DNA of 64,000 bases from Asterias amurensis. Its lineage: Eukaryota > Echinodermata > Asteroidea > Forcipulatida > Asteriidae. The notes below the pieces were generated by a model. That model worked only from the letters and a program-made list of their open reading frames with translations. It did not search any database and was not told the DNA's origin. The DNA is taken from positions 4,004,001 through 4,068,000 of the forward strand of contig NC_092665.1 of NCBI RefSeq assembly GCF_032118995.1, read 5' to 3'. The translations under genes were made by a program, and so were the position numbers. This document shows, piece after piece, positions 33,829 through 62,539 of the stretch; positions within the stretch are counted from its first letter, which is position 1, and each line of letters starts with the position of its first letter.

Positions 33829-33834
33829 AATAAA
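33829..33834 (+). terminator. poly(A) signal candidate for PPIH
   Basis: AATAAA about 630 bp after the PPIH stop codon, the first canonical signal downstream. The cleavage site is not visible. Confidence 0.45.
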
Positions 33835-34004
33835 CCCATGTAACATCTCTGCGGAGACTGCTTTATCTATTTCATTACACATACCAAATAACAATCAGTG
33901 CCAATAACAGGGAAGAAATGTTCAGTTTTAGATGTTGGAGAAACATCTCAATGGGGAAACCCACTCGCAATCGGGTAGGGACTGAAAACCTAAATCCCAT
34001 ATTA

Positions 34005-34309: not shown

Positions 34310-34510
34310 TATTTACAACCTCCAGTCCAAGGTGAGATTCAAACCGGGGTCCACAGGGGAAGGGCAAGCAAAGAAACCACTAAGCCAACCTGATGAAACT
34401 AATGTTTTTTTTAACTGGGAAATGTGTTTTGTACAGTATTTTGTAATAAATAAGTTCAGTTTTTTGCTCAAACATGGAGTTTTTGTATTATGTAATTAGT
34501 TAGTTTTTCA

Positions 34511-34780
34511 AGGCACTGAATACGTTGGGTAGTTGTCGAAGACCAGTATTCTCACTTGGTGTATCCCAACATATGCATTGTACAAAATAGTGTGCTTTCA
34601 GATAGGAATAAAAGGCTTCTGGCCTGAAGTCTTTTATTGATTTAGTGAGAAACTATGTTACTTCAAAGGGAATCGTTTCTCACAATGTTTTATCCTATCA
34701 ACAGCTCTCCGTTGCTCGTTACCAAGAAAGGTTTTACGCTAATATATATTTCAAGTATATTACCAACAAATACAGTGCCT
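34511..34780. mobile_element. MITE-A copy, first of a pair
   Basis: AGGCACTGAATACGTTGGGT at the left and CAACAAATACAGTGCCT at the right. TTAA at 34781-34784 is shared with the next copy. Confidence 0.75.
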
Positions 34781-34784
34781 TTAA

Positions 34785-35181
34785 AGGCAGTGGACACTAT
34801 TGGTAATTACTCAAAATAATTATTACCGGTATCATAAAACCTTTATCGATTATGAGTAATTGGGAGACTAAGAGGTTGATAGTATAAAACATTGTGAGAA
34901 ACAGCTCCCTCTGAAGTGACGTAAATTTCGAGAAAAAAAGTAATTTTCCACGAATTTGATTTCGAGACCTCGGTTTTAGAATTTGAGGTCTTGAAATCAA
35001 GCATCTGAAAGCACACAACTTCGTGTGACCATGGTGCGACAAGGGCGTTTTTTCTTTCATTAATATCTCGCAAGTTCAACGACTGATTGAGCTCAAATTT
35101 TCACGGGTTTATTTTATGAATATGTTGAGATACACCAACTGTGAAGACTAGTCTGATAATTACCAATAGTGTCCAGTGTCT
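34785..35181. mobile_element. MITE-A copy, second of a pair, full length
   Basis: AGGCAGTGGACACTATTGG at the left and CCAATAGTGTCCAGTGTCT at the right, with TTAA on both sides (34781-34784 and 35182-35185). At about 397 bp it is one of the best preserved copies. Confidence 0.9.
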
Positions 35182-35309
35182 TTAAGTGCTACTACAACCT
35201 CACCGTCCTTGTTTTATCAGTTAAGATCATTGATACATAAAACAAAAAATAATAGAACACAATAAGAACATTACAAAAACACAAAATGTTTCTTTGCTCA
35301 AACATGGTG

Positions 35310-35315
35310 TTTATT
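35310..35315 (-). terminator. poly(A) signal candidate for YBX
   Basis: AATAAA on the minus strand about 1.4 kb past the YBX stop codon, which would give a long 3' UTR over 35.3-36.7 kb. That stretch has no repeats I recognise, which fits a UTR. Other AATAAA-like words in the region make the choice uncertain. Confidence 0.3.
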
Positions 35316-36697
35316 TTTTTGAGCCTCATTCGGATTTGTGTTGTAGCTTCTAAGGTCTTTACAAAGAAGTCTTATATTTATCACAAATGAGATCTCCTGC
35401 TATAGATGGTAGAAAATGAAATGGAAAGAAATTATGCAGGAATAACAAAAGTGCCAAAAATTAGGAACTATAGTCCTCAAAGCCGCAGGGAATTAAATAA
35501 GAAAATTGACCTTTGGCCTGGCACCTGCCAAAACAAAATTTGAATCTTTCAAACTTATTTAAGTTTTCATTTTTTTCTTTAAATAATTTCATTTTTTTTT
35601 TATAGATCAGAATTTCTAATCCCCCAAAATTCAAAAAATACTATCCCCAAAACAAAACTTTTAATGCAGCAAATGCAATTTGTCTTCTCTCTTTTTTTTT
35701 CAAGACGGATTTCAGATACAAAATGAAACTTTTCAAAATTAACTTTTTAGTCAAATTCGTCAAATTTGGTACAAAAATGTCCTACAAAATGAAATACAAC
35801 TTGTTGGCAGATACCTGGGTTTTGTACTACAAAACCACAGCCAAATCGGTCCGATCCAAAATGACACATATACCTCAACTACAAATACATTAACGTCTGC
35901 TCTACGAAGTGCCAGGACTTACGATCTTAAAAGTTATTCCCCAAAAAGTATTCAATATTGTTTCCATGGCATCAAGGTCTGACGATATTAGCTATTGGAA
36001 GTGTCTGTAACTGGTTTTTTTTAATACTGTCCAATTGTTTGGCCTCAATTTATTAAGTAGTTCTTATATTTCTATGACTTTGGTTTCTTTATAAAATAGT
36101 CATTGCAAATTGCCAAATATTGCAAAAGGTTTTGTGTATCCTTCAGGGTAAATTATCCGCCATAAAGTACTGTTTTTAGTTAACATGCCGCAGACGGCCA
36201 GTTTACACCAGGCGTCTCATGACAGGTGCATAAAACACCTGCAAAATTATTGGTAGGTACATTGATACCAGAGCTAAATGTAACGTCATGGTATTATACG
36301 TACACATTGTAGGCAGAGTTTGTAATCCTCTACAGGTTGGAGTTTCTTGGAAGTCTCTTAACTATTTCTTTTTTTTTTAACCGGTTTGAAAAGATTGTGC
36401 TGAGTTTCTGATAGTAATACATTCCAAATACTACATACGGCTGATATAAAAACAGGCCTTAAGTTGTACAACTTCCCAACTATGGATCACAAATGCCAAC
36501 TACCTTAATTTCACCAATCGTCTCCACAGACAGCGAGTGTGTTCGTTATCATTTGCCTTCCAAATCCCTCGTGTCTGAAAATAATATCCGATGGTCATTA
36601 TTTGCAGGATGTTTGATCCCACATGATGTTGCTATCCCCTGGGTTCTATGTGGGCGTGTTTGTGGGTGTCTGTCTGCCTGGCCTAACTTGGTGTTAC

Positions 36698-39600
36698 TTA
36701 CTCCTTGACTTCGGTAGCTTCTGGTGCAGTGTGCTCCTCTTTAGGACCAGATGGGCTTCCCTATAAGGTGAAAAAAAAAAACATGCAAGTCATTAGGCCT
36801 GGGCGACGAGTTTTGTAGCAGCGACTTTTAATTGCTTAGACCAGCCAACACTACTGTGTTCAGCCGACACTATTGTGTTCAGCCGACACTACTGTGTTCA
36901 GCCGAGACTACTGTGTTCAATTACTCAGTTAATTGTGCAGCCAGGATTACTACAAAAATAGTCGCGTACCTTTAATAAAATACAACTTACCTCTCCAGCA
37001 GAGCCTTGCTTTTCGTTGCGTGCACCTGGAGGTCTGCGCCTGCGGTAACGTCTTCGTTGAGGGCGCTGTTCTCCCTCGTTCTCTTTATTCTCATCACCAC
37101 CACCTCCTTCCTCGTCTCCTTCCTGGCGACGTTGCTGTCTGTAGTTACGATAACGTGGACGGTAACGGCGACGGGGTTTCTCCGAATCCACGCCATCTTC
37201 TTTGTCACCGTTCTCTTTCTGTGAATAAGATAGACAATTATGCAAAAAATAGTTTTAAAAAGATTATTCGTTGGTTATAAAGCGACAAGTTTCTCAAAAA
37301 GTTCACATTAGATTTTAACTATTTCTGTATTGTCTCGTTACAAATCTTTGCTCAACACACATAAATCATTTATGCTCCTTTAAAGGGTATACGTACTTTT
37401 TCCTAACAAAAAACACAATGTCCACAGATTTGAAGATTATGATAGTAGGAAGCTTCCCTTGAAATTTTACTTACTGAGGTGCTGTAGTTTTTGAGAAATG
37501 AGTAAAAGTAATAATTTTCGTCTCAGTTTTAGCATGTAAAAACGTATTGACCAGTTATGCTATGGTTTTGGTATAATATCATACATGTAACTGGTTAAGG
37601 GGATTTTACATGCTAAAATAATTTTGGTCTCATGAGACCAAAATTATTTTGTGACTTGTTTTAGTCATTTCTCAAAAACTACACAACCTTAGTTAGTAAT
37701 ATTTGAAGGGCAGCTTTCCGCTATCGTTATTTTCAAACCCTGTAAGTTTAATGTACCGGGTAAATCTGTGGACATTTTGAAAAAGTACCCAAATCCTTTA
37801 AGCCATTCATTTCTGTACAATCTCCATACGCCCAGACATTGCTAATTATGTTGATTTTTTTGCATTGCTATTTTCAGGTAATTTTCTGGAAAATTAATGA
37901 GAAACAGAAACACATGGTTTTGTTTTTGAGTACATTCTATGTTTACATGAGAAACATTAGAAAATGTCAAATCAATCCCAAACGTTTTCTTTGCCCTCCA
38001 TTGTTTGAGCAAAAGATGGTCAAATATTGTGGCCTCTCTGGGCATTTTGGTACAAGCCCCTTGCAGCCACTATTGTCTCTAAGAGTTTAAAGGCACTGGA
38101 CACTATTAGTAATATTGTAAATGACCAGTCTTCTCACTTGGTGTATCTCAACCTACATGTATGCACAAATAAGAAACCTGTGTAAATTTGAACTCAACTG
38201 GTCGACAAAGTTGCAAGATAATAATGGAAGGAAAAACACCCTTGTCACACAATGTTGTGTGCTTTCAGATGCTTGATATTGAGATCTCAAAATCAAATTC
38301 AGAGGTCTCGAAATCAAATTCAAATGTTTTAGTGGAAAATGACAATCAAATTCTGAGGTCTTTCATTCAAATTCAAACAGTTTAGTGGAAAATTACTTCT
38401 TTCTCGAAAACTATTTTACTTCAGAGGGAGCCGTTTCTCAAAATCTTTTATATTATCAACAGCTCTCCATTGCTTGTTACCAAGTAAGTTTTTATGCTGA
38501 CAAGTATTTACCAATGCCTTTAAAGTCAGTGGACACTATTGGTAATTGTCAAAGACTAGCCTTCACAGTTGGTGTATCTCAACATATGCATAAAATAACA
38601 AACCTGTGAAAATTTGAGCTCAATCGGTCATCGAACTTGCGAGATCATAATGAAAGAAAAAAATACCCTTGTCACACGAAGTTGTGTGCGTTTAGATGGT
38701 TGATTTCGAGACCTCAAGTTCTAAATCTGAGGTCTCGAAATCAAATTCGTGGAAAATTACTTCTTTCTCGAAAACTATGGCACTTCAGAGGGAGCCGTTT
38801 CTTACAATGTTTTATCTATCAACCTCTCCCCATTACTCGTCACCAAGAAAGGTTTTATGCTAATCATTATTATGAGTAATTACCAATAGTGTCCACTGCC
38901 TTTAAATGTAGCTTACCTTGACACCAGCTTCATCAGAGTCCCCTGCTGGACGACGGTAACCACGATTACGGTATCTCCCTCTTCCGCCTCCTCTTCCTCT
39001 TCCTGATCTCGGAGGGCGACGCCCCTCTGTGTTGTCCCCGCCCTCTGAGGTACCACCCTCTTCCTGCTCCTCACCGTCCTCTCCATCCTTACGGCGACTG
39101 TAGTAATTACGGCGAGTACGGAATCGACGTCTGTCTGGGGCGTACTTGCTTCCCTGTACTGCGGAACCGTCAGGACCAGTCACATTACTGGCTTCTTGGC
39201 CCTAAAACAAACAGTACCCACATGCAGATTAGTGCTGGGCAAATAGTGAAATTTTGATATTCGGATACCGTTGGCCAACTATCGGAAATTAACCGGATAT
39301 TCGAATAGTTTTTTAGCTAGAGGGGGCTAAAAAAAAAAGTAGGGTTTTTGCCGCTAGAGGGCGCTGTTCATTTGTGAATGAGATCTTTTGGGCGGATTGA
39401 TATTCGTTTTAGACAGTGTCACTCGGTTCATTCATAAAAATAACCAGATCTAATTTAAAGATGGCGATTTGCTTTTTCTTTTGATCGTGATTGACTCTAC
39501 GTGAAGGAAAACTTTTGAAATCTTTGATCAAACTACGCCAGAAATGTCATTGTTTTAGCTCTCCACGGAGGTGAGCATAATTAAATACTTAATTTATGCT

Positions 39601-42600
39601 GTTTTATGCTGTCTTAATAGACGTTTCATAAGGATTCAGACAAAACATTCCTATCAGTTGTCACCAGACGTCCGCGGATATTCGGATATTAAAGAATATC
39701 TGGTTTCTTGGTTGTAATTACAGAACTATCCGGTTTATAAATAGGTATTCGCGCCCTATGCGGATATCCGGTTGAGAAAAAAAAAAGGCATTCGCGGTTA
39801 CGAATAGGAAAACCTATTCGCCTTTAACCGGATATTCGAATAATTCGCCCAGGCCTAATGCAGATGTAAAACACTTCTTTAACCGTGCATGCAACTACAG
39901 TTTAAACAAATTTGTTTAAAGAAAGTGGCAGACACAAGAAAAGTTTGGCCTTGGCGCCCCTTCAAAAGTTTTCTAATGGAAGTGCCCTCTCTACAAATCG
40001 AAAATGGCTTAACTAGCCCCTTCTATGATTTTACCTTTCTTCCAGCGAGCACATCAAACTCAACTGTCTCACCATCCCCAAGACTGCGCAGGTACTTCTT
40101 GGGATTGTTCTTAGAAATGGCGGTCTAGAAAACAAGAACAAACATCCACTCAAATCAGCATTGATCACTTTAAATTTTAAAATCTCCAGTTTGTGATCCC
40201 CCCTCTTTTTTGTCTTCACAGTATTGTGGAGAACTTCGAGTATTATCAATGGTTGACAGTAAACATTCTATCCGAGGGTTTCTGGTTCACCAACAATACA
40301 CCGATCCAGTAGGCTCTGCCCACAACGCACTTGTGAGCAAGAACACGTGGGGCTCTCGAATGCCTTTCTGCACAACTCTGCCGCGCGCGCCAAGATACGC
40401 GCACGCATGTCGGACCTTATTTGTCGGACCTTATTTGTCGGACCTCCGTTGCATTGTGATTGGTCAATACGCAATGGGGCGGAGCTTAGTGGATCGGTCT
40501 ATTATAAAGAAGGAAGACAGAGATGCACATGGTTTAGTTCTACTAGTAATAGGAATTTTGTAAACAATTTTAAAAGGTATTGGACACTTTTGGTAAATGT
40601 CAAACACCAGTATTCCCACTTGGGGTATCTCAACATGTGCATAAAATAACATGATGTTGTTCACATCCCTGTTTATTGGGCCTCAATTATTTCTGAAACC
40701 ATCTCAACTCCTTAGGAGTATGCAGCACCAACAGCCAAATAAGTGCAGGTTGCTTATAATTCACATCAATAAACCTATACCCACATAGGTACCCCTTTAA
40801 CACTGGGTGATGAGAAGCATTTATAGCGTCCAGGAACTGGACCCAAGTGTCTGTACCCAAATTTGTGCCTACACTCTGATGACTCAGACATCTGATCAGA
40901 ACTTGAGTTTCATGATCTCTACCGCTTTCAAAACATATCAGAAATTTAAAAAAAAGTTTACCTGATGGACGAAGATGTCGTCCTGCGTATCGTCCCTGCA
41001 AATGAAATGAAAAGAGAATTTGAAATAAAATATCAAAAAAACTATTGATGTATTTGTTTCTACTATCGCTCTATGACATGTAGTTTACCTTTTTGTTTGG
41101 TTGCTATTGTATTTCGTAAGCGCTTTGTATCGCTTTGTAAAAAGCGGTATATAGGTAAGGTTATTATTATTTAGTATTTAACATGATTTTAACCAGGATC
41201 TTTGGTCCTTGGAGAAAAGTAGGACAATGTTTTTGAGTACAAGAGCTGACTTATGGTGTAGGCTTATGTAGAGTTCAGGCTATTTAACTACAGTTTTTCT
41301 TATCCCCCTCCCCCAAAGCACCAAAATACACCAGACGGCGAAATGTAAATTTCCACCGATTAGAAAAATATCAAGCCTGAATTACTGAAACTACTTCAAC
41401 TTTATGAAGCATACTGTTCTTGAGTTTTCTACTAATAAAGAGGAAGTCAGCTGATCAGATGAAAGTTGTATGTCTTGCTATGACATTTTGTGCTGCATTC
41501 TTTATCTACAACTTAAAAAAGAAAGAAACAATAAAACCTACCGGTTGATGAAACCGTAGCCACTTCTTACATTAAACCACTTGACTGTGCCCGTGACGCC
41601 GCTGGCTGTAAAAAACATTGAAAAGAAATAAAATGCTTTACTTAATTTTAAAATAAGTTCATTCAAAAAAAGGGTTGTTTGAAAACATCCTTTCAATTCT
41701 GTCTAGAGGGAGGTTACATCCCCAGCTTATCCAATTAGTCAGTACAAAACGTCATCAGCTTCTGTAAGTGCATGTACCCCTTCTGGAAACATGCTTGCAC
41801 TCAGACTAGCAACAAAGCAGGCAACTGCCCAACCAACCCTGAAATTTCAGCTTTGATTTGAGAGGGCAAGGCCATTTTTAGTTGCAAAGACTCCCATTTT
41901 TAGGAAATCTTGAGTTACTCACGGCATGTGTGAAATGCAAATCATACTGATAGTGATGAACACTAAGTCTGACAATTGACGACCAGTAGCAATAAATATC
42001 AACTGTCCCATTTGCTTGGCTCAACATACTCAGGGCAGGCCTGTCTAGCTACATGTAGCTAGGCCGCACTTCTAGTGAGTTCTACCATGGTTCTACAGTT
42101 GCCCTGCCTGTACTGCACGCACAGTGTTGGCCCCCCAAAATTTTATAATTATAGGTAAGAAATATTGACAACAAAATAAGTTAATTATTTGTTGAAAAAC
42201 TTGAATACCGTGCAAGTCTTTCAAACACATGACATGACCAGATGACATAGATAGGACTTTCTTTACCAATACACAATATAGCCTTAACACTGAACAGTTT
42301 AAATTTGATAACTATTTTATGAGGGATTTTGAACCTAACCAGGTTAATTAAAGGCACTTTGAAATTTAATTTCTAAATTTGTAACAAATTTAAATGTCGA
42401 CCACGAGCTAGGTAGGAGCAGACTTTGGAATTCTTGACAGGATAGATAGATAGCCTAAACTTAAAGGCTTAATTCATAGAATCATAATGAATATAAAAGA
42501 ACAAAGCAGAAAGATTCCTACATCAGTTAACTTATAGTTGTAAACATATTTTGTTACAAAAATGAATCGCAATTTGGCAGTCCATATAGATAGGCAAATG

Positions 42601-42919
42601 TTTTGAGCAATCATTCCTAACCAAAGATGGGAGTGTGCGCACATTACAATTAATTCACGCTGGTAAACCATGCGTAACCCAAAAAGAAGCATGGCCCAAA
42701 ATGATGGGCGGGTACCAGTATGCCATTCCACTACACACACACATCAACTTCGCACCTGCCATGTTTTTGAAGGCAATTTCACGATGAAATAGTTGTCATT
42801 TTTTACCATTTTCTCAGCAACGCCAGCACCTGTAATCTTTATTTTTACACCATCTTACCCAGCAATACCCCTTTCGATTGCTCGTCCACATCAGGCTGTT
42901 GTTCAGAGTCCTCAGTCAT
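36698..42919 (-). CDS. YBX1: Y-box cold-shock RNA/DNA-binding protein
   Basis: Y-box proteins package and regulate mRNA and bind single-stranded nucleic acid through a cold-shock domain. Seven exons in phase: 42919-42859, 41605-41542, 40995-40962, 40124-40035, 39201-38917, 37218-36991, 36760-36698, giving 274 residues (human YBX1 324). The cold-shock domain is at about 22-100: RNP1-type [14 protein letters not shown] with Trp30, Phe31 and Phe39, RNP2 DIFVHQ at 48-53, then [20 protein letters not shown]. The C-terminal part alternates basic/aromatic and acidic blocks ([35 protein letters not shown]) as in the family. The N-terminus is short, without the alanine/proline-rich lead of YBX1 or YBX3. 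One gene may stand for all vertebrate YBX1-3; the symbol marks the family. Confidence 0.95.
36842..36918. repeat. 23-bp tandem repeat, about 3.5 copies
   Basis: CAGCCGACACTACTGTGTT recurs with a period of 23 bp in the last YBX intron. Confidence 0.85.
37384..37797. mobile_element. MITE-L, 414 bp, with perfect inner palindrome
   Basis: TTAA at 37380-37383 and 37798-37801. AGGGTATACGTACTTTTT and AATGTCCACAGATTT at the left pair with AAATCTGTGGACATTTT and AAAAAGTACCCAAATCCT at the right. The region 37615-37650 is a perfect 36-bp palindrome centred on CATG. It lies in a YBX intron. Confidence 0.85.
38091..38519. mobile_element. MITE-A copy, first of a pair
   Basis: TTAA at 38087-38090, start AGGCACTGGACACTATTAG, end TTACCAATGCCT, TTAA at 38520-38523 shared with the next copy. 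An inner segment with GTCTCGAAATCAAATTC is duplicated. Confidence 0.85.
38524..38901. mobile_element. MITE-A copy, second of a pair
   Basis: It starts AGTCAGTGGACACTATTGG, ends CCAATAGTGTCCACTGCCT, and has TTAA at 38902-38905. Its end lies 15 bp from the YBX exon donor at 38917. Confidence 0.9.
39230..39857. mobile_element. MITE-F, hAT-like non-autonomous element with 8-bp duplication
   Basis: ATGCAGAT stands at 39222-39229 and again at 39858-39865. The ends TAGTGCTGGGCAAAT and ATTCGCCCAGGCCTA are inverted with a one-base difference in register. Subterminal motifs GGATATTCGAATA and CCGGATAT recur in both directions. Eight-base duplications and short inverted ends are typical of hAT elements. 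It lies in a YBX intron, 28 bp from the exon at 39201. Confidence 0.85.
40572..40651. mobile_element. MITE-A fragment
   Basis: Only the first 80 bp are present: AGGTATTGGACACTTTTGG then ATCTCAACATGTGCATAAAA. Confidence 0.6.
40680..40935 (-). mobile_element. SINE-1 copy, old
   Basis: The core in plus sense reads ACCCACATAGGTACCCC, GGGTGATGAGAAGCATTTAT and CACTCTGATGACTCAG, as in the copy at 6835-7192. The B box is decayed. Confidence 0.55.
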
Positions 42920-44079
42920 CTTTTTAGGCAGATGTTCTTACCGGGCGCTGATCTTACTCCCCTTCGCACAACGATCTTTCTTTGTGCTGACAAAATGTCG
43001 GCACACGCGCTATGAATTGTGGGAACAAGGTGACGTTTTGGGCTGAGTTAAAGAAGAATTTTTACAGGGGTGTTCTAAAGTAGTGACGATAAACTTTTAC
43101 TTTCAATCAAAATTTCGTTCTCTTACTGATTTGATTGCTCTAACAATCACAATTATCCTGTAAAAAAGTGAAACAATGTTAAAAACATCTCCCATCCATT
43201 GTTTCCGAAAAAAAAAACATTTCCAAAAATGACGTTTCATAGGGTCTATATATAGCATGTGCCATTCTCTTTGAAGTCTTCGAGAAAGACTCTAGTCTTA
43301 GGGCCAGGTCGAAACGTCAGACAGACCATTAACGTTTTTGTTTTGCAATTTTACCATTGGTCCTTTTGGTAAGTTGTTTGCAACAGCTAATTAAATTTTC
43401 TCATAAAAAAAACCCCGTGTATAGGGGCGCTTGGTTTTTGAGTGAGAACACTGCAAAACAAAATATAACTGTCGTTTGTATATAACTTCCTAAAACTTCC
43501 CGCCACGAAGGTGCAATGGTTCAGGCTTCTTCTTTTTTTTTTCTTTCTTTTTTTTTCCTTTTTTTTTCATGCCCCATGTGCTTCAAAAATAACATGAGTC
43601 GTTACTTCCGTTTTGTTGGCAGTTTTCTTGTCCGTAAGAATTGTCCAGATCCTGTGTATGCACTTTGAAGGCTATATGGCATTAGTTGTTTGTCTTTACT
43701 GTATATCTTTTTAACAACCCATCACTCAGGGAAATATTTCATTCTTCCCACAGTTTGTGTGTTGTTGCACAGTGGAAATCAGAAGTATACCTTGTTTAAA
43801 GTAAATAAATACTATTTTAAAGAGAAAGCGCCACTCTCGCTTTAATTACAGGATTACCCAATAATATTTGTATTATTTTCAAGGTTCAATGTTAATATAT
43901 TTTTCACAATATCAAACAAAAAAGAGACATAGTCAAATTAAATAAAATGAAATGAAAATAATCACTAAAAAGACGCCATAGCAGTACGTCAGTAAAGTAT
44001 ACAGATACAGCATAGAAAAAAGGGAAGAACTAAAACAAACGATGACACTGCATGAATACTATAGGTAGGGATCATCAGC

Positions 44080-44490
44080 CAGTTAAGAAAACGCGATTCA
44101 ATTACTCCAGCTTTGCAATCTCTCCATTGGCTTCCTATTCATTCTCGCATCATCTTCAAAATTCTCCTTCAAACATTTCAATGCAGTCTTGGAAGTGGAC
44201 CAACTTACCTGAAAGATCTACTAACTCCATACACTCCTACTAGAAACCTCCGTTCTGCTAACAAAGACATCCTCGTTATTCTTAAAGTGTATGGTCAACG
44301 TAGTTTTCAGTTTCTCCCTCTACACATCAAACAAGCCACTGCGATCTCAAGTTTCAAGACTCTTCTCAAAACACATCTATTCAAATTATCTTATACTTAA
44401 TTATTCTTTTGGTTCCTCTGAGCGCTTAGAGACTTTCTTTTGGCGGTGTTAGGCGCTATAGAAATACGGTTGTTATTATTATTATTATCA
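44080..44490 (+). mobile_element. 3' end of an L2/CR1-like LINE
   Basis: The frame at 44113-44400 reads LHWLPIHSRIIFKILLQTFQ, GPTYLKDLLTPYTPTRNLRS and SFKTLLKTHLFKLSYT, the standard C-terminal end of L2-type reverse-transcriptase ORFs. The 3' tail has AGGCGCTATAGAAATACGG and an ATT microsatellite, like the SINE-1 tail. The usual GxxLWNSLP-type block is shortened, so the copy is probably not functional. Confidence 0.75.
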
Positions 44491-45420
44491 ATTTTTTTAG
44501 AAGCAGAGCTTGCTATGGTCCCTAATTTAGACGTGTTTTTGTTTCGACAGAGAATAACAATTAATATTATTGAGTTTGTACTTTCATGAGTATCTGACCA
44601 CTAAGCGATGTCAATGTTCTGCAAGTGTCCAATTATCATAAAATATATTATCATAAATACATTGCACTCGCAGACAACGCCTATTGCTACAGTGAAAAAA
44701 GTTAAGACAGAAGAACACCCCTTTTATTCGGATCATTCCAATTCATGGGGTATCGCAATTGAACCATTTTGAGTAGCCCCTCCCGAGACAAACCTTAGTT
44801 GGCCTGGGAATGCGCATGCGTTGTACCTGCATCGTCGACTCTCTTTTCCGTTCGCAGGCGCCACATGTGAGTAAAACACCAACTTTTGATCATAAAATTC
44901 CCCGATATTGACGAAGGACATTACATTTTTATATATCATTTTATAATACTTGTTATACTCAATCTATGTTTGTACCAATTTATTTTATAAGTTTGTAACA
45001 AGCTTTATGTAGGTCTATTTTTTCTTGAAGTGAAATTCACAACTTAACTCAGTATTTTGTTCGTGTGCTTGTGTACGTACACCGCAGTACGTGGACTTAC
45101 AAAAGCAACGTGTTTTAGTTAACGTTGAGTCATGTGTATGTGTGTGTTGTGTGGATGTCGTTTTGTGGCCCTCGTGCTTGCCCCTGCTGCTGTTGGCATT
45201 TGTCGGTTAAAAAAATAGGGATTTACTGGAGATTGCGCAATACACACGAACATTTTAATAACTGCTTTTCTTATGTTTACCTTTTTTCCTTGTTGCATTT
45301 GAGATCTATGCCCATTTTCCGCATTTGTTTTGTAATGTAAGTAAACCAAGTCTAAGGAGTGGACCATCCATGTGTCTCTTTTTTTTTTTAAGTTCCTAAA
45401 AAAGTTGGCAGATAAGTTTG

Positions 45421-45573
45421 GGGGAAAAGTTTCCGTATGCGTGTGGCGCCACCACTTTTTCATTTGATATGAAATAATATAGTATCTAATTTACTTCAAC
45501 CCTTCCAATGAGATATCCCTTTTTGTAAAAATGAGTGAAAAAGTGGTGGCGCCATACAGAAAGTTATCCTAGT
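45421..45573. mobile_element. MITE-M copy, about 150 bp
   Basis: The left end (GTTTCCGTATG, GTGGCGCCACCACTTTTTCA) is inverted at the right (TGAAAAAGTGGTGGCGCCAT, ACAGAAAGTTATCC). The middle is ATATGAAATAATATAGTATC. Confidence 0.75.
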
Positions 45574-46028
45574 TTGGCATGTGGTATGGACTACTCCTAG
45601 AACTATTTCGGTTTCGTCCGGCTATCGTCTCCCGTAACCTCATAGACGAACATCTTTTACGTGTTTAACGACCCATGGTTCAATGAATTTTTGAATCAGA
45701 AATCTCTCTTTTTTTTTCTTTTTTTTTTTAATCTCGCCAAAATTAGGCTCTATGTGTCCTTTGATATATCAGTGTGCGAGGGGGCGACCAGAGAATCCAC
45801 TCCGCAATCTCAAAAATTGTTAAAAATAATAAATTCTTACCATAATTTTGGATTCCCTATCTACTGTACGTGTTACTCCGTTGCCAACAATTTTGAAAAT
45901 TACCCGACCTCGTTTTGCGAGAGTGCGTCACAAGAGGGCGGGTACGGTTTGTGATTTGTGTACAAAACATACACGGAACCACGAAGCTCGCACAGGGTAC
46001 CAGTTTGTACACTTTTTGCACACAGCCG

Positions 46029-46138
46029 TGTTTTCATTCGATATGAAATAATATAGTATCTAATTTACCTCAATGAGATATCCCTTTTTGTAAAAATGAG
46101 TGATAAAGTGGTAGCGCCATACGGAAAGTTATCCGAAG
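46029..46138. mobile_element. MITE-M copy, right part
   Basis: ATATGAAATAATATAGTATC through AAAGTGGTAGCGCCATACGG then AAAGTTATCC repeats 45463-45573. The left end is missing. Confidence 0.7.
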
Positions 46139-46845
46139 AAGTGGCTGTAGGATACAGTATTCCCAGTTACCTTTCCCAATACAGACATCCCATCATGATT
46201 AATAAAGAATGTCCTGTTATGTTTATGACTGTTAATAAAATACTTTCCACTGTGACATCACAAATGTACAAAATTTGTCTACAATCAATAATTGAATTTA
46301 GATGATTTAATTCGTCTACAAAACAAAGTCTCAAGCTCAGTCCAAAGACAACTTTAAAATGCTTTACCTTACAGTACTTACAGGATTAATGAACGATTTA
46401 CAAAGTCTTCCCAGCATTGCCAGCAGATGAATACAATTTTGTTGATTTGTTTGTTTGGCATTTTAATGTCTTTGGTGTGAAAAAACACACTTGAAATTTG
46501 ATGACAATCTTTTTCACGTGACTGGATCCTGATATCTTCAACACAGTATTTTTTCTTCACATAATTAACATCAACTAAAACAATAAAACATATTTTAAAA
46601 ACAAAACCACGTCAAGGAGAATCTTACATTGTGTTGTAAACTACTTTTTTGGTTCATCCCTAGCTAGGTGTCCTAATTGGTATCATTTGAGTAAAAAGTA
46701 AAGCCTTTACTAAAATCTGTTTCTACACTAAAACACTGACATTTTCTTGATAATCTTTCTATCATTGCAATTCCATAGTTTTTGCTTTTTTTTTTATGTT
46801 GTCGTAGCATCCAGTATTCAAAATCGTCAACAGCTTTGATCAACC

Positions 46846-49489
46846 ATGGAAGACAATGATGATTTTACAACTGGCGAGTCTGGTGCCTCCGAAACATATC
46901 CCGCTCAGTGTTCAACTCTTCGCAAAAATGGTTACGTGATGCTGAAAAACCGTCCGTGCAAAGTGGTAGAAATGTCCACATCCAAGACGGGGAAACACGG
47001 TCACGCCAAGGTGGGTGTTCTGGGCAAATTTTTGTACTCCTTAGCTGGATGTTTCAGGCCTGATACTTCATGGAGGTGATTGTTCCATGCCTCCTGGTCA
47101 TTGCCTTGGTGCCCTGGAAATGCTCCAGTAGAAATTTCAATTTCCTCATACGGTGCCCTTTGCCAAGGAAAAATGCCATGGTGCCCTTGCCCTCTCAAAA
47201 CCGTAGCATACATGCCTAATGTTTACCTTAGCTCCCAAACTCACATAATGTCAATTCTCCTTTAGATCATACAGTAGTAAAGTCTTATAAGCTCAAAGGA
47301 ACTGAACCCTTCTTAAAGACACAGGACAATATTGGTAATTGTAAAAGACCAGTCTTCACACTTGCTGTATCTCAACATATGCATAAAATAACAAACCTGT
47401 GAACATTTTATGCATACAGGTATTGGGATTTTTGTTGCTGTGATGCACCAAAAGAGGATACTGGTCTTTGACAATGACCAAACGTGTCCAGTGCCTTTAA
47501 ACAACACTATGTATTAATGCCCATTCATGGTATGCAGTTTTTCATGTTAACACAAATAACTGTCTTCTTGTTTCAGGTGCATTTGATCGGTATAGATATT
47601 TTCAATGCCAAGAAGTACGAGGATATCTGCCCTTCAACCCATAATATGAATGTACCCCATGTAAAGCGAACAGATTTGCAGGTAATAAATCGTTGTTTTC
47701 AATCTTATTAACGTTGACAGAATCTTCAAGCAGGAGCAGTTTACTTGTCATTTTCACTAGTCTGTCTGCATTTTACAATTGTCTGCGCTTCAGTCGCCAT
47801 TCTTTGCTTACCTGGCAAGCACCAAATTTCTAGTTCTGTTAATATGCTTGCCGTAAGAGCGGAATTCCCTGCTTCCATAAGTGCCAATTCTTTGCTTACG
47901 GTAAGCAGAGCCATGAAATTCCGCCCTGTTCTAGTTAATAACTTTTCAATGTTATACAATTTTGTAAATATGGTAAATTTACCCTTTTGGTTCTTGGGAA
48001 AAACTGTTAAATTCTAGAAAGTTAAACTTGTGGTTGATTTTCTTGCCCCAGTGCATTGGTTTAGAAGATGGATTCCTCTCCCTTATGACTGATACCGGAG
48101 AAACACGCGACGATCTGAAGGTTCCAGAAGGTGATATTGGAAAAGAAATAGTCGCAAAGGTGGAGAAGGATGAAACATTTAATGTAAGTAACATAGCCCA
48201 TCTGGGGTAGAACTCACAAAGAGTTAGACAAGTCTTATCTCAAGTTTGGGCGAGTTTCTCGACCTAAGTTAGGACTAGCCTTAAGTTTTTTATATTTCCC
48301 AGGACTAGTCCTAAGTTAGGAACTAGTCCTAAGTTCCGAAGTTCTTTGTTAAATCGACCCTGGTGTTTTTGTAGGCTTCTTACAAAATGCAGCACAGTTC
48401 AGAATAAGCTGGTGGTGGCAGAATTAATTTTTTCAAATTTCTGAAATACTTTGAGAATGTTATTTGTGGGATAATTACCTTCCAATTCTCTCTCAAGAGT
48501 TTTGAAGTACACTTGCACATAAACACAAATGAAATAGATCTTCTCCGAGTGTTGTTTGACTTATTTTAATTGTGGTCTTGTAAGATCAATGCTGGTCCAG
48601 TAAGAATTTTGAGCTACATGCAGTAAATCCAATATAGTCCACCAAGGGCGAGTGGTTCAACAACATTTTTCATAATTATATATATGGGGGCATCATTGCT
48701 GAATTGTACCACCCACCTTGGCTTCAACACTGGCTACAAACCATGCAGTCTTGTAGAATTCCCCCCCCCCCCCCTTTCCCGAAATTGAGCCCTGCTCAGC
48801 AGCACAGGCTTTTTACTCCCATAGAGCTTAAATGGTTTAAGGAGTGAAGTTAATAGTCCAATGACTAAGGGTAGCAGGGACGAGCGGTCTAAGGCACTGG
48901 TTTAAGGCACAGCACCAGTCATTTCGATGGCCTGAGGTTTAATTCCACCGCTGCCAGGATTTTTCTCCGCCTTGGAACCCCCAGCAGGGTGGATATGTGC
49001 GCGTTACAGTTTTTTTCATGCAACGTTTCCGCGGAATTACGCGTTTTTTGGGGTTTTTTAACCGTACGAAAAAAAGAACAAGAATAAAAACCCTTTTTTT
49101 TCTTTTCTTTTTTCCCGGATTTTTTTTTTTAGCCTAATATATACCTGGCATTAACAGTGTATAGCTATAATCATGTAAAATAAGCCTAGTACATGCTAAA
49201 AAAGCACCTAAGAGCATAAAAAACCGCAACATTTTCTAGGGTACCATTGTGGGTATCATGTCCCGTGGCGTTTCGGCTGCCTCGCTCCGCACTTGCATTG
49301 TGCCTTTGAAAATTTTCCTCTTTTTTTTTCAACGGGCAGTTGCATGCCTGTTAATATTATAATAATAGTCTTGTATTGGCACTTTACGAGAAGCCACTAA
49401 TTATTATTTCTTTGTCTTTTATGTAGGTAACCGTTCTAAAGGCGTGTGGTGAAGAGTCTGTTATAGCTATCAAGAATGTAACTGTTTAA
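46846..49489 (+). CDS. EIF5A: eIF5A, hypusinated translation factor
   Basis: eIF5A binds the ribosomal E site and uses hypusine to help peptide bond formation at stalling motifs such as polyproline. Four exons, all phase 0: 46846-47010, 47577-47681, 48052-48183, 49427-49489, giving 154 residues, the same as human. The hypusine loop [12 protein letters not shown] puts the modified lysine at 50. [13 protein letters not shown] and [10 protein letters not shown] are family blocks. The start codon is in a good context (AACCATGG), and an acceptor GTCGTAG at 46801-46807 suggests a non-coding first exon upstream. A poly(A) signal at 50856 gives a 3' UTR of about 1.4 kb. Introns contain MITE-A, MITE-B-like and MITE-C copies. 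It is followed by a paralogue in the same orientation. Confidence 0.97.
47317..47496. mobile_element. MITE-A, 180-bp internally deleted copy
   Basis: TTAA at 47313-47316 and 47497-47500. It keeps both ends (AGACACAGGACAATATTGG; ACGTGTCCAGTGCCT) but only about 45% of the usual length. Confidence 0.85.
47765..47925. mobile_element. MITE-B variant
   Basis: GTAAGCAGAGCCATGAAATT at the right end and inner GAATTCCCTGCTTCCATAAG match the variants at 18797 and 24765. Confidence 0.5.
48204..48360. mobile_element. MITE-C copy
   Basis: GGGGTAGAACTCACAAAGAG at the left and TTCTTTGTTAAATCGACCC at the right. AGGACTAGTCCTAAGTTAGG repeats fill the middle. It starts 20 bp after the eIF5A exon 3 donor. Confidence 0.75.
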
Positions 49490-54677: not shown

Positions 54678-56141
54678 CTCTAGTATGTGTGTTTTCTGCA
54701 ATCGGTGGTTGAAAGTGTCCATTTGATGACATCATCAAGAGTAGTAAAATTGCGTCCAGGATAGACCAGTCCAGGAACTTCAGTGGTTGGCTGTGCAATA
54801 CATTTCCCTCAAGTGCCATCTAGCCTGGCTTTACCCGGTCGTTGGAGGCTTGTATTTATGGGAGAAGAAGCATGTCATCAAATATAATAATCGTCGGTTC
54901 TCCATTGTACATTGTACATGTTTTCAACAAGTGAACAATTTGGGCACATGAGGGCGTACTTGAAGTGCTGTTGTGGCCATAATTATCCATGACGTCATGT
55001 CAAACGTAACACGCCACTATGACCCCAATCTTATGATTCCAAACTGATATCGAGTTCGATTGCTAGTTCTCTCCGATTTATAACTACATTGTATACATAA
55101 CAAACTTATGGTATGTTAAAAAATCTTTTGACTTGATCATGCAACGCCAAAAAATAAACAAATTGTGTTCTTAAAATAATATTGTATGCATTAAAACGAA
55201 AGAGTATACTGGCCATACCAGTTAATGGTTTAGTAATGTTATGTAATACTTATTTTGAACATTATCATCTATTAAATTGGTTTGGTTTGGTTTAAGTTAA
55301 ATACAGATTACTTGGAAGTTGTATCCTTACACACTCGGTATTAGTGTACTGCACACGTGTCCCGACCCCCTAAATCAACAAACAAACAAACAAACGAAAA
55401 GGGAAAACTAAAAAAAAAACACTAGTGCCCAAGAAGAATGAGGGAAGACAAGCAGGCCCACTTGTACGTCATCATAAAACGAAAGTAGTTTTCCATGGCT
55501 CCCTAAATAGTTTGACTGCATAGCCTATTCCTGAATAATTATCTGAGAACGACACTTTTGTTTCAAAATTCCCTTCTAAAATTGCGCCCCACCCCCCCCC
55601 CCCCCACCCCACCAAAATCTGCCCTTATGCACCCTCGCACTCCCCCTATATACCCTAGCCTCCATCCGTTCCAACAAGCAAAGCTATACCAAGACAAAGT
55701 TCAGCCGATGGGCGTGGAAAACCCCCGCAGTACACATGCAGATGACACATACAGCATAAACGAAAGCAGACCATCCCACCAAGGACATTGCACAATCAAG
55801 TGCAATGCATTGTACAGTTAAAGTTACGCATAGTAATAATTGTGTGGTGCAATACAATACATTTGCGCAGCTATAAATTAAGACTTCAAAAACCTGTTCG
55901 ACACAACAGTTCCTGCATTCGTATCGCTGCTGCACCATCATGTTCTAGATTTTTGTTCTAAATTTGAAGTATTGTAATACAAAACTACATGCCAGCGAGT
56001 AGAATATCTAAAAAAGTCTGTACATCGTGTGATGCCTTAACCGGGTACATGTCAAGTAGGGTTACTGCAAGTGGAATTGGCTGAAAACAATCTAGGATAC
56101 AACTTAATAAAACTTTGACCCATAAAGAAATCTACTCCAAG

Positions 56142-59100
56142 ATGCCAAGGAAGACCAAAGCTAGTCGCAAGACGGATATGAGTTTGGAGAAGAAGATCCA
56201 AATCTCTGAAGATTTTGAAGTTGGGAATGCTGGCGCCTCTAAGACGTACCCTCTGCAGTGTTCCGCACTTCGTAAAGGGGGACACGTGATGATGAAAGAC
56301 CAGCCATGTAAGATCGTAGAAATGGCTACGTCTGCACCAGGAAAACATGGACACGCAAAGGTTTGTAAACAACTTAACCCTTAAGTTCTTAACTATCGGT
56401 AGTGTGATGATGGATTCAATTTATTGAGGAAATTTATTTATAGTTAAGGGCCCGATTGTTTTGTTTGGGTTTCTTTTACGTTTACTTGTAAACAGATGCC
56501 CTAGGCCTAAAACCGAAGAAAAATTCATATTAATTTGCGTAAACAAATTTCTAACAAGTGAAATAATAATGCATGTATTGAATCACTTATTCACTTATAA
56601 TTATTAGTCAGTTTTAACACATTATTGATCTTAATTAATTATGCACATCACATAACGTCATTTGAGAAGGGCGCCCTCTCCTAGATGTCAAAAGAAAGGT
56701 TGTTCATTGGCCAATCATGCGCGCCGCGCGTACAACTTTTTGTTCACCTTTAACATGGCGGTGTGGCAGGAGATTATGCCCCCCCCCCCCCACGGAGATT
56801 CGGTCCCAAAGTTGGCGACCTGTAAACAAACTTCTTCTGATAGCGCCTTTTTTTGAATCATCCTCCTAGAGCCCACGTTAATTTCCCATTTTCCAATTCT
56901 CCGGCGGACAGAATTCCCCGGGACACCGGCTTGTAATTGTACGTCAATAATTTTAAAGCCCGGTTCATACTTCCTGCGACATGCGAATGCGATGCGAATT
57001 TGACGTCACAGCCTTCCTTTCGCAGCGATTTTCGCAAGTGAGTAGCCCAGAGTTGACCTGCTGCGAATTATTCAGAAGAAGCTTTCTTTCAGGAAGACAC
57101 ACAATAATGCGTCCCGAAATGTCGGGTATGTTTTCCACAATCAATTCAGAACGTAACAAATCACTTCCTTTAAGATGAGATAATGTTATAACCCCTTGAC
57201 TCTGGACCTATATCCTAACACACTTTTTTGCTTCAAATTAAGTGTTTTCTTGAAACAAAATACAAATAATTTTGTTCACTTTGATATTTTAGATTCACCT
57301 GGTTGGGATTGGTATTTTCTCCGGGAAGAAACAGGAGGTGATCTGTCCGTCCAGCCACTCCATGATGGTGCCTCATGTCAAACGCGAAGATTATCAGGTA
57401 AAGAAATAACGGACAATCCAAGTAAATACGTTGTAACTGATTACTTTCGGTTTACTTTAGCTGAGGCTTGAAGCTTCGGCTTACGGTGTCCCTCTTTGCT
57501 GCATTGGGTTCGCGTTGGTGCGGCTGTGCTTCCAATGAATGGCATTCGTCCAAAAGTGCTCGCTGGATCTTGTTTTCTGTCGCCTCTATATGCGGGTTTG
57601 TGAATCCATCATGAGTATTCTGTGGATTGTTACCAGCAGGACTACCACACACACTGGGCCCACCCAGTTTCATAAAGCCTGGAAAGCCCCTTGCACACTA
57701 GATCTCATTTAGCAAGGATCCCCTGCTAAATTGTAGCATGGTTGTAAATGTACCTCGTGTGAAAGACTACTGTCCGAATTCTCTTGCAAAATCATTTTAA
57801 ACACTTTTTTTTGCTACATTTTATGCTAAAATTAAGCTGTCGCATGTGAACTTAAGCGTAAAAACTTGTTACAGAAAATTATTGCTTTACAGAAACTGGT
57901 TACCAACCAAAATTCAATTAAGTTTATTATTATAACTCTGGTGCCCCACCTTATTGCTTAGCAAAGAATGTTGCCAAGCAACATTGTCTGCTAAATTAAA
58001 TAATGGGCCATATGTGTGCTAATAACACACCAGTGTATACAAGTTTAGTCCACACAACGTTCAAATAATTGCTAATGCATTTCTTTGACTAAATTTGTAT
58101 TTGTTTTTCCTTTTCTAAAAGGTGATTGGCGTTTGGGATGGGAGCATGAATCTTTTGGACAACAAGGGCGTGGTCAAAAACTTTGTCTCTTTGCCAGAGG
58201 GGGAGCTCGGGATTGAGATTCAAGCACGATTCGAGGCAGAGGAAGACATAATGGTAAGTTTTCAATGTTTGTGTCTCCTTTCTAAAAGTTTTTGTGTACC
58301 CTCAACCAGTCCTGTCACTGTCCCTGCAAATACAATTATATTTTGTGGTACAATTATTATTTTTGTGGTATTTTTTCAAAATAAAGCTTTTGTCACTAAT
58401 ATATGTGTTTTGATGAGTGGAATGTGAATAAACAGTTTACTGAGGTTTTAAAAAATCAGTTCTTATGTTGTTTACAAATTTAAGAGTAGACCCCGACCCG
58501 AGAGGGCGCTGTTCGTGACGTCAATCGAGGCAGACTTTGTCTGTAATGCGTAGAGTAAACACAATTGCAAAGTACATGTACGGACCAAGTCGTGAGTTTG
58601 TACGTTTCAAAAAAAGATTTGTTTTTTTTCTTCCGGCAATGCCGACCAGGTGTATTGCTACTGAATGCAGAAAAACACCTTTTTGAAACGTACCAACTCA
58701 CGACTTGGACGTACATGTACTTTGCACGTGTGTTTACTATACGCATTGCAGGCAAAGTCTGCCTCGATTGACGTCACAAAAGGGGTAGGCGGAGTCAGCC
58801 CCCAAACAACTTTATATATTTTTTAAACATATAAATCGTGACAAACAATTACTAAAAAAATTGTTTTATTGTTCGTAAGCATATACTCTTATGTTTGAAA
58901 AAAAATATATATATTTCCAGGTGCCTTTAAGCAAATTCCCTTTTAAAGGCACTTGAGACGCTTGGTAACTACACAAAACATAATTAGCAAGAAACTTGTA
59001 ACGAGCAACGGAGAGCTAGCTGTTGATATTTAAAACATTCTGAGGAACAACTCCCTCTGAAGTAACGTAGTTTTTGAGTAAGAGGTAATTTCTCACTGAA

Positions 59101-59414
59101 TTATTTGAATCCGGCTTACTCACACAAAATTTGGTGGAACAAGGGTGTTTTTTCCCCATTATTTTCTTGGAACTTTGATGACCAGTTGAGCCCAACTTCC
59201 CACAGATACACCAAGTGAGAATACTGGTCTTTGACAATCACCAAAGGTGTCTATGCCTTTAAGAGACGGGTGGATATTGATATTTTATTTATATTATTTG
59301 AAGTCTAAAAGCTATAAATAATTTGTATTTTATTGTTTGATACATCAACAGGTTACTGTCATGTCAGCTTTGGATGAGGAAGTCGTTGTCGGTTTGAAGA
59401 AACTGCCCAAGTAA
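56142..59414 (+). CDS. divergent eIF5A paralogue with basic N-terminal extension
   Basis: Four exons, all phase 0: 56142-56360, 57293-57397, 58122-58253, 59352-59414, giving 172 residues. Exons 2-4 have exactly the lengths of those in eIF5A 7 kb upstream (105, 132, 63), so this is a tandem duplicate. The first 20 or so residues, [20 protein letters not shown], are an added basic stretch. The hypusine loop is kept as [12 protein letters not shown] with Lys68 in the modified position, but the preceding Lys-Thr of eIF5A has become Ala-Pro. By hand count it matches eIF5A at about 34/50 in the exon 1 core, 23/35 in exon 2, 15/44 in exon 3 and 8/20 in exon 4, so the OB-fold half has drifted most. 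The frame and splice sites are intact, so it is probably a working gene. The donor of exon 1 (GTTTGT) is non-consensus at position 3. Function unknown; not named here. Confidence 0.9.
58362..58926. mobile_element. MITE-D copy
   Basis: It matches 26262-26831 nearly base for base, including the hairpin arms and GTAGGCGGAGTCAGCCCC. The left end is replaced by unrelated sequence; the right end TTTCCAGGTGCCT is followed by TTAA. It lies in the last intron of the eIF5A paralogue, about 110 bp after the exon 3 donor. Confidence 0.9.
58947..59258. mobile_element. MITE-A copy
   Basis: TTAA at 58943-58946 and 59259-59262. The ends AGGCACTTGAGACGCTTGG and ACCAAAGGTGTCTATGCCT are inverted. It follows MITE-D by 20 bp. 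Confidence 0.8.
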
Positions 59415-60220: not shown

Positions 60221-62005
60221 TTAGACAAACTTGTTTGCTCGGTTTGCAAAGGCTGCCTTCTTGGCTGCTGCAGCCTCCTTATCTCTCTTGGCCTGTTTTT
60301 TGGCTTCGGTAGCCTTCCGTTGCTCAGCGACAATTTCGTCTTTCAAATTCTGGGTGTCTTCATCAGCCCGGCCCTGTAAGATAAAAACAAATAATAATAA
60401 TATTAAAATATGAATGAAACAGCACAGTAACATCAGCGGAAGTTTTCAGTGGCAATTTGTTCACTTTAATTGTTGATGTATGTAAAAGTTATTTCGAAAC
60501 GCCAAGACCATTAAAATGGCTCTTTTTCGTGTTCAGCGCCAGTCATCCAAATAGGAGATTTGCACATGATTAGTTGTCACCACACGTTTACGAGTTCCAT
60601 CCTTTTGATATACCTTGATTGGTAAAATGAAATCATTTGAAATGTTATATCCCCGATGTGGGTGGGTCCAGTGGTCGATTTCACAAGCTTTAGACATGTC
60701 TTATCTCAAGTTAAGACGAGTTTCCGTCCTAGCTTTGACTTAAATAGGACTAGCGTTTAGTCTTTAAAGGCAGTGGACACTATTGGTAATTACTCAAAAT
60801 AATTATTAGCATAAAACCTGTATTGGTTACGAGTAATGGGGAGAAGTTGATAGTATAAAACATTGTGAGAAACGGCTCCCTCTGAAGTGCCATAGTTTTC
60901 GAGAAAGACGTAATTTTCCACGAATTTGATTTCGAGACCTCAGATTTAGAACTTGAGGTCTCGAAATCAACCATCTGAACGCACACAACTTCGTGTAACA
61001 AGGGTGGGTTTTTTCTTTCATTATTATTTCGCAAATTCGATGACCGATTGAGCTCAAATTTTCACAGGTTTGTTATTTTATGTATATGTTGAGATACATC
61101 AACTGTGAAGGCTAGTCTTTGACAATTACCAATAGTGTCCACTGCCTTTAATAACTCAGTAGGATTAGTCCTAAGTTGGAACATGGAGGACTTCCTCATG
61201 GTTAGGTCAAGTCCTAAGTTAAGATTATCTTTGTGGAATCGACACTGGAGCTTGTTAATCTATCGGTAGACATTTCTAAACATTGTGCTCATAAAACAAT
61301 AATGACAAAATTCACAAAATATGGAAGAAACAAAAATGGGTTCCTTACAGCCGTCTCGAAGAAGTTCTTAGCTCCACCCACTCCTGCCTTTTCGACCTCT
61401 GCAGGTGTTGCTGCTAAGACGATCTTATTGTTCTTGACAATCTTCGTGTATCCTGACCCCTCTGGCATTTCTCCTTTCAAACACTTGCTCCACAGTAACA
61501 TAAACTGAAACAGATCAAAATTTGAGAGTTCGTTATGTAAGGTAATTAGCCCGAGTAGGGCGGCATTTTTTTGTATTACACAATAATTGCCATCGGAAAA
61601 AATCCAGTTTTCCTATTGTTTTTTTTTAATCGATTTAGAAAAACAATATATACTACTAGTTTTAGGCGAACTGACTTTTACTGTTCGGCAGATGCAAACA
61701 TTTCTTTCTTAAAATTTTTATTTTGTGAGTGCAAAATGTTTTGCTAATCGGTTTGAATTTGGCTTCGAACAAGAAAGTGCTGTTTTCATGCTACTCTCTT
61801 ACTTGTTTTATTTTTACCAGAGTAAATTCATTAAAGCGCCCTCTCGTGCTTAACTACCTCTCTGAAATTGAATTTGCCATCCTTGTCCTCGTCTATGTGG
61901 CTTATGATACTTTTGAGCTCGAGGTGAGTCATAGGCTCCCCTCGTTTCTCCATCATGTTCTTCAAATCATCATAACAAATAAAATCATCCTTGTTCTCGT
62001 CGTAT
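60221..62005 (-). CDS. EFHD1/EFHD2 (swiprosin) family EF-hand protein, 3' part
   Basis: Swiprosins are calcium-binding, actin-bundling cytoplasmic proteins. Three exons in phase: 62005-61858, 61504-61349, 60373-60221, encoding 151 residues to the stop codon. Two EF hands are present: the first loop DENKDDFICYDD lacks the glycine at position 6, the second DEDKDGKFNFRE is canonical. Between and after them come MMEKRGEPMTHLELKSII, VGGAKNFFETA and a long basic coiled-coil-like tail (EIVAEQRKATEAKKQAK), as in EFHD2. The first codon is split, so at least one 5' exon is missing; none with matching phase was found up to 64000. It converges on the eIF5A paralogue. Confidence 0.88.
60671..61245. mobile_element. 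MITE-C copy interrupted by MITE-A
   Basis: GTGGTCGATTTCACAAGC at the left and TTTGTGGAATCGAC at the right are its ends. TAAGACGAG and AGGATTAGTCCTAAGTT are C-family inner motifs. A MITE-A sits at 60768-61147. Confidence 0.75.
60768..61147. mobile_element. MITE-A copy inside MITE-C
   Basis: TTAA at 60764-60767 and 61148-61151 bracket AGGCAGTGGACACTATTGG ... CCAATAGTGTCCACTGCCT, a well preserved 380-bp copy in an EFHD intron. Confidence 0.9.
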
Positions 62006-62539
62006 CTGCATACAAAGAAAATGATTGGTTAATGTGTTGACATGTGACATCGTACAGAGCATCCTTTGATTGATTGACTTTGTTCACTACATACAATCAC
62101 TGAATAATCTAATCCGATTAATTGGACGATTATTTTAAAGCAACAGTGACATTTTAAATTTACCCTTGGTGGTTATTAGTCATGTGACAATAGTATATAC
62201 CTCATTATAATGTTGATGATTGAACTTTAACTAGCCTGTTATATGTTTTTTTTATGAAGAGCGGTAAAGAATGTCTCTTCCAAATGAATTTCGATACGTT
62301 AGGCCCAATACGAAACTCGTTTGTTATATTGAGATTGCTGTATAGCGCCGAGTCCTTTTTGGTTGGCTGTCTGTTTAAGAAAATTAACATCAACAACAGA
62401 AAATAATGTAGTGTTCGTAATAAGCGGTGACATTTATCAAAAAAAGAAGATCCAGAATTATGCAGTGTCTGCTATTTTTTATTCCTTTCGAAAAGACCCC
62501 GACTTCGATCCTATCCAATCGCCACTTTTCAAACCCAAT

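Follow-up and report, generated by a model that had tools for sequence, protein, structure and literature searches.

A second, divergent eIF5A gene in tandem with its neighbour, old and with the hypusine lysine in place

The question raised by this locus is whether a strongly divergent second gene beside a translation factor as constrained as eIF5A is still a working eIF5A, and how long it has existed. The window, by which we mean the whole 64,000-nucleotide stretch of DNA analysed here, comes from an animal by its gene content. A natural, long-lived form of eIF5A with two changes beside the modified lysine, one of them at T48, where a human disease variant falls, would reveal the true requirements of the modifying enzymes and of the ribosome, and whether animals use specialised eIF5A forms. 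The two genes, called here the standard gene and the copy, and the elements next to the copy are as follows.

46846-47010, forward strand: standard eIF5A exon 1, carrying the canonical loop
47577-47681, forward strand: standard eIF5A exon 2
48052-48183, forward strand: standard eIF5A exon 3
49427-49489, forward strand: standard eIF5A exon 4, including the stop TAA
55872-55877, forward strand: TATAAA, possible promoter element 270 bp upstream of the copy ATG (consensus match only)
56142-56360, forward strand: copy exon 1, donor AAG/GTTTGT
57293-57397, forward strand: copy exon 2, the rest of the N-terminal domain, ending at human residue 90 and as long as its counterpart in the standard gene
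58122-58253, forward strand: copy exon 3, the bulk of the C-terminal OB domain and the most divergent exon
58365-58930: repeat element of about 565 bp inside copy intron 3, with 94% identity to 26274-26835
59352-59414, forward strand: copy exon 4, including the stop TAA
59646-59651, forward strand, with another at 60031: AATAAA, possible polyadenylation signal of the copy (consensus match only)

The copy (56142-59414, forward strand) has four coding exons for an intact protein of 172 amino acids, and the standard gene (46846-49489, forward strand) has four for 154. The original prediction described a tandem pair in the same direction, some 7 kb apart, with identical intron positions, equal lengths of exons 2-4 and an intact frame and splice sites in the copy, and all of this holds. 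The coding regions are separated by 6.65 kb, exons 2-4 measure 105, 132 and 63 nt in both genes, every intron of either gene is in phase 0 with GT...AG ends, and the copy has neither an in-frame stop nor, in exons 2-4, an indel relative to the standard gene. Its first exon is 54 nt longer, giving 18 extra residues. Because an in-frame stop (56082-56084) precedes the ATG, the reading frame of the copy can start no earlier than at the methionine of MPRKTK; the context of the start codon is AAGATGC. A processed retrocopy is ruled out by three introns at the same codons as in the neighbour. A tblastn scan of the window found no third eIF5A, returning the two genes and one 19-residue match (E 0.68).

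Judged by its sequence, the copy is an eIF5A. The N-terminal domain (Pfam IF5A-like_N, 112.1 bits against a cut-off of 27.1, E 1.1e-32) and the C-terminal OB domain (Pfam eIF-5a, 70.4 bits against 24.2, E 1.5e-19) are both present, NCBIfam TIGR00037 scores 131.4 bits against a cut-off of 75.45, and the best PDB matches are eIF5A chains, with E down to 2.4e-57. It is a divergent one, identical to the standard protein at 80 of 154 positions (52%) and to human eIF5A at 85 of 153 (56%), and the loss of identity to the neighbour is uneven: exons 1-4 retain 34/51, 23/35, 15/44 and 8/20 identical residues, and the C-terminal domain (human 91-153) only 23 of 63. The alignment thus indicates that the N-terminal domain with the modified lysine is preserved in the copy and that the OB domain has drifted. 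Ten of the 44 columns that are invariant in seven outside eukaryotic rows are altered in the copy (K47A, T48P, R36Q, D62G, D71V and five more), against three in the standard gene. The standard protein shares 100 of 153 residues with human (65%), for reference values of 63% between yeast and human and 73% between moth and human, so this nominally standard eIF5A is itself unusually divergent, about as far from human as yeast is. There may be a third, more conserved eIF5A elsewhere in the genome.

The two human eIF5A proteins are about 84% identical. The human pair and the yeast pair are each described as "more than 90%" identical in the text available from PMC8835957, and on either figure the 52% found here agrees with the earlier claim that the copy differs from its neighbour far more than EIF5A does from EIF5A2. 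In a nine-row tree, the end branch of the copy is 0.90, that of the standard gene 0.44 and that of the moth 0.15, and the three vertebrates lie 0.16-0.26 from their stem. The description of the copy as fast-evolving beside a standard gene is right as to the copy, but its comparison gene is no slow reference, with a branch about three times that of the moth and roughly two to three times the vertebrate path. To call the copy a new variant was fair: the core fold and GKHGHAK are kept, and two loop residues and the tail are changed. The outside rows include PDB entries 7oyc, 7oya, 5hy6 and 3hks, which we take to be frog, fish, moth and Arabidopsis. The human (8a0e) and yeast (5gak) rows agree with PMC10042821 and PMC7864902. 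The remaining row, from locus L001, is called an alga from its position beside Arabidopsis in the tree (support 99/97).

The copy keeps GKHGHAK with the hypusine lysine (K68, human K50), as well as T45, S46 and the whole of G49-K55, and K47-T48 is replaced by A-P, so that 8 of the 10 human residues at 46-55 are kept. It departs from the full eukaryotic 12-residue loop, which is usual and not known to be required, by S44A, K47A and T48P. Position 44 is also A in the alga-like row, whereas K47 and T48 are invariant in 7/7 outside eukaryotic rows, and K47-T48 stands before G49-K50 in human, the standard gene, moth, yeast, Arabidopsis and the alga. Residues 30-90 are given as the minimum substrate region of DHPS (PMC9117371), and here the copy keeps 41 of 61 human residues, Arabidopsis 42, and the standard gene and yeast 49 each. 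Human T48N is reported to lower hypusination and ribosome association in yeast (PMC7864902), N173 of DHS to contact the T48 main chain (PMC10042821), and glutamates of Xpo4 to contact T45, T48 and K55 (PMC4912631); P48 could therefore weaken modification or export. Five residues are listed with missense variants in a human disorder, T48, G106, R109, P115 and E122 (PMC7864902). The copy keeps G106, P115 and E122, has K at 109 as yeast does, and has P at 48.

Homologous loops were compared in the best 80 of 492 confirmed loci, 79 of them titled archaeal and one (L001) eukaryotic and alga-like. The search patterns came from the eukaryotic alignment and the copy, and one of them asked for T or P at 48, so that the frequencies at this position mean little. 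GKHGHAK is present in all of these 80 loci, and the residue pairs at 47-48 are RP in 48, KT in 21, KP in 5, AP in 5 and SP in 1 of the best 80 of 492. All five A-P loci are archaeal. The double change in the copy thus matches a combination in use among archaeal proteins rather than two arbitrary losses, and deoxyhypusine synthase probably still accepts the loop as a substrate, hypusination of the archaeal A-P proteins being assumed. Since the whole protein falls among animal eIF5A in the tree (86/90), this archaeal-type state is most simply regarded as convergent. Within the same 80 of 492 loci, the residues at 47 and 48 are linked: every A or S at 47 is paired with P48 (6/6 aIF5A loci, L022, L029, L048, L049, L070 and L080), and every T48 with K47 (21/21, including L001). 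The alga-like eIF5A at 601-1063 of L001, in a sequence titled as a Verrucomicrobiaceae MAG, is eukaryotic and represents contamination; it has a putative 37-base intron at the codon of intron 2 of both window genes, an old intron position.

The acidic N-terminal tail of eIF5A has been replaced in the copy by a longer, basic one. The charge of the residues before the first domain is +2 in the copy, against -5 in both the standard and the human protein, and the first 18 copy residues alone carry +5. The pI is 8.38 for the copy, 5.36 for the standard protein and 4.95 for the human protein (over the 153 residues seen). Such a tail could serve location, RNA binding or ribosome binding.

The protein of the copy has been under selection. 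A codon model over the 154 aligned codons of the standard gene and the copy gave an omega of 0.029 with dN 0.41, a pairwise value that mixes the branches of both genes, and omega = 1 was rejected (LRT 78.4). Fixing omega at 0.1, 0.2 or 0.3 cost 1.4, 5.6 and 10.4 log units. The dS of 14.5 is saturated and unusable as a number, and third codon positions differ in 101 of 154. Together with the intact frame, these values bear out coding and purifying selection on the copy, and a freely drifting copy could hardly have stayed 52% identical over a saturated dS with no stop or indel. In simulated neutral decay of the standard gene to 52% identity, 17 of 400 replicates were stop-free, and the simulation was run without indels, which would lower this count further. 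A polarised test took sites at which human, moth and the standard gene agree, with yeast and Arabidopsis as the deep set. The copy alone had changed 8 of 52 deeply conserved sites and 13 of 33 others (p = 0.019). With yeast alone as the deep set p was 0.020, and with the alga added the counts were 7/43 and 14/42 (p = 0.08). This is a fairer test than the hypergeometric comparison of copy changes with conserved columns, whose values (0.001 to 3e-6) come out too strong, since residues in which human differs at variable columns are scored there as changes of the copy.

The duplication is old, as had been claimed of a long-lived paralogue. Likeness between the introns of the two genes is confined to dispersed repeats, which are found in other parts of the window too. 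Of 22 states of the standard gene that are absent from the seven outside rows, the copy shares none (0/22), although at eight of these sites the copy carries a further private state, which could mask sharing at an earlier time. Pairs among the three vertebrates share 3/14, 6/14 and 4/15 private states, a loose yardstick as these sequences are much closer. With the two genes constrained to be sisters within deuterostomes, the stem common to both measures 0.03-0.05 and the standard branch 0.36-0.46, which with the absence of shared states places the duplication before most of the divergence of the standard gene. Recent duplication or gene conversion is ruled out by the saturated dS, the unalignable introns and the private states.

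The explanation that we consider probable is that the copy is an ancient tandem duplicate of eIF5A and still a working gene, whose product carries hypusine and works on the ribosome, in a narrower setting than the neighbouring gene. According to PMC9117371, eIF5A occupies the E site of the ribosome, where its hypusine touches A76 of the P-site tRNA, and the eIF5A isoforms are the only proteins known to carry hypusine. By analogy, the protein of the copy would be a substrate of deoxyhypusine synthase and hydroxylase, would bind the E site with the hypusine facing the P-site tRNA, and would promote peptide-bond formation on stalled ribosomes. Its deployment may be confined to a tissue, stage or condition. 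The A47-P48 pair and the basic tail may alter how strongly it is modified, exported or located.

Three other accounts of what the copy does have to be weighed against this. That it is a decaying pseudogene whose frame happens to be intact would accord with the repeat element in its third intron and with the few simulated replicates that reached 52% identity stop-free; the absence of any stop or exon 2-4 indel, the complete set of splice dinucleotides and a saturated dS alongside a dN of 0.41 argue otherwise, as does the expectation that indels would thin those replicates further. The copy is no retrocopy by its structure, and on these features a pseudogene is very unlikely. Rather unlikely, and deserving more weight, is a neofunctionalised protein of eIF5A fold whose main task is no longer to assist peptide-bond formation on the ribosome, as with HEX-1 of fungi. 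The long branch, the ten altered invariant columns, the drifted C-terminal domain and the new tail with its raised pI are what such a change of function would leave behind, and HEX-1 chains are among the remote PDB relatives of the copy. Yet the parts of the protein best kept are the N-terminal domain and the loop that serve hypusination, and HEX-1, unlike the copy, has lost the hypusine site. Finally, A47-P48 might block or weaken deoxyhypusine synthase and leave the copy as an unmodified or poorly modified decoy or regulator of the modifying enzymes or ribosomes. The effect of T48N in yeast and the contact of DHS N173 with T48 point that way. However, P48 occurs in 59 of the best 80 of 492 loci (where the pattern allowed T or P only) and the complete A-P pair in the five archaeal loci whose modification is assumed, and we regard this account as improbable.

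A further alternative concerns age and is compatible with each of these functional accounts. The duplication may be older than the split of protostomes and deuterostomes, with the standard gene belonging with protostome eIF5A, the copy with vertebrate eIF5A, and reciprocal losses elsewhere. The free nine-row tree joins the standard gene to the moth (75/81) and puts the copy beside these two, and its shape had a p-AU of 0.90-0.93; a tree of (standard, moth),(copy, vertebrates), at 0.22-0.23, was not rejected, and the complete lack of shared private states also fits. In exon 4 (human residues 139-147), K139 and C141 are common to the standard gene and the moth, and the copy has S139 as in yeast, human and fish (two of the three vertebrates) and V147 as in vertebrates, a pattern that might go back to an old pair of animal eIF5A genes or might have arisen by chance. 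Against this, a tree of sisters within deuterostomes escaped rejection as well (p-AU 0.42-0.55), the copy and vertebrates kept together had 0.07, and the standard gene shares with at least one vertebrate six otherwise absent states, where the copy shares four. The basis is nine sequences and about 150 columns, on which the 95% set by AU takes in seven of nine topologies under LG+C20 and eight of nine under LG+G4; copy with moth was rejected (0.0005-0.01), copy outside yeast was marginal (0.04-0.08), and monophyly of the two window genes tested against the free tree had a p-AU of 0.14. We think the older date unlikely. The boldest form of the idea is likewise unlikely: that an eIF5A pair of ancient animals, of which most lineages kept one member, survives complete in the window, side by side since about the origin of bilaterians, and that the copy has specialised as an elongation factor whose hypusine loop is of archaeal type and whose tail is basic, the two hypusinated factors dividing ribosome rescue between them.

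Seen as a working, hypusinated duplicate, the copy can be set beside the known systems. With human EIF5A and yeast Tif51A it shares both domains, GKHGHAK and an intron 2 right after residue 90, and it differs in its 56% identity to human, its altered invariant columns and its basic rather than acidic tail. HEX-1, the Woronin body protein of fungi, is likewise a strongly diverged eIF5A duplicate, but its PDB match to the copy scores 34 bits, where the best eIF5A chain has 197, and the copy retains the equivalent of K50. The ten-residue loop of archaeal aIF5A is identical to that of the copy in five of the best 80 of 492 loci, whereas the whole protein of the copy groups with animal eIF5A. Vertebrate EIF5A2 is also a second eIF5A gene in one genome; it is placed on 3q26 (PMC9117371) and at more than 90% identity to EIF5A (PMC8835957), unlike the tandem copy at 52%. 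The location of the copy, in tandem and close to a Y-box gene, suggests a duplication independent of the one behind EIF5A2. Two eIF5A isoforms are ascribed to most eukaryotes, nearly identical to each other in yeast and in human (PMC8835957). A diverged animal duplicate with a hypusine site and an altered loop fits neither these pairs nor HEX-1. Among the matches listed (titles and abstract starts, with subscription journals largely absent) there was no report of such a duplicate, and none concerned a second eIF5A gene in echinoderms. In one scan of viral contigs three stretches matched a pattern and none was confirmed as a relative.

The neighbourhood bears on the origin of the pair. Cyclophilin exons lie at about 30.3-32.5 kb on the forward strand (Pfam), one piece having the U-snRNP cyclophilin PPIH as its third-ranked PDB match (3e-10, against 2.7e-10 for the first). 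A Y-box protein gene follows at about 36.9-41.7 kb on the reverse strand, with pieces of cold-shock domain, of which one falls short of its cut-off, and further exons recognised by eye; the best PDB matches of one piece are YB-1 and Y-box-binding protein 2. YBX2 and EIF5A are reported to lie around GLUT4 on human chromosome 17 and a Fugu scaffold (PMC3832493), and ybx1 and ppih adjoin in neighbour lists of fish taste receptor genes (PMC7014666). The order from about 30300 to 49489, PPIH-like cyclophilin (forward), Y-box (reverse) and eIF5A (forward), appears to join these two vertebrate pairs and so looks like a gene order that preceded the genome duplications of vertebrates, in which case the eIF5A locus of the window would correspond to vertebrate EIF5A, and the copy would have arisen by local duplication.

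Two further features of the window lie upstream.

21212-21268, forward strand: borderline tRNA-like match, possibly the head of a repeat and the sole match of the Rfam scan (29.8 bits, gathering 29)
23989-24381, reverse strand: exon of an ARMC9 homologue (Pfam CTLH_Armc9, 1.5e-28)

Downstream, an EF-hand gene at 60224-62028 on the reverse strand converges on the copy (Pfam EF-hand_7, 3.3e-11 for one piece); we take it to be swiprosin/EFHD-like. The likeness of the repeat element in copy intron 3 to its counterpart at 26274-26835 suggests a fairly recent transposition, and its middle (58512-58780, 269 bp) is an imperfect palindrome, 82% identical to its own reverse complement, with arms of about 130 bp.
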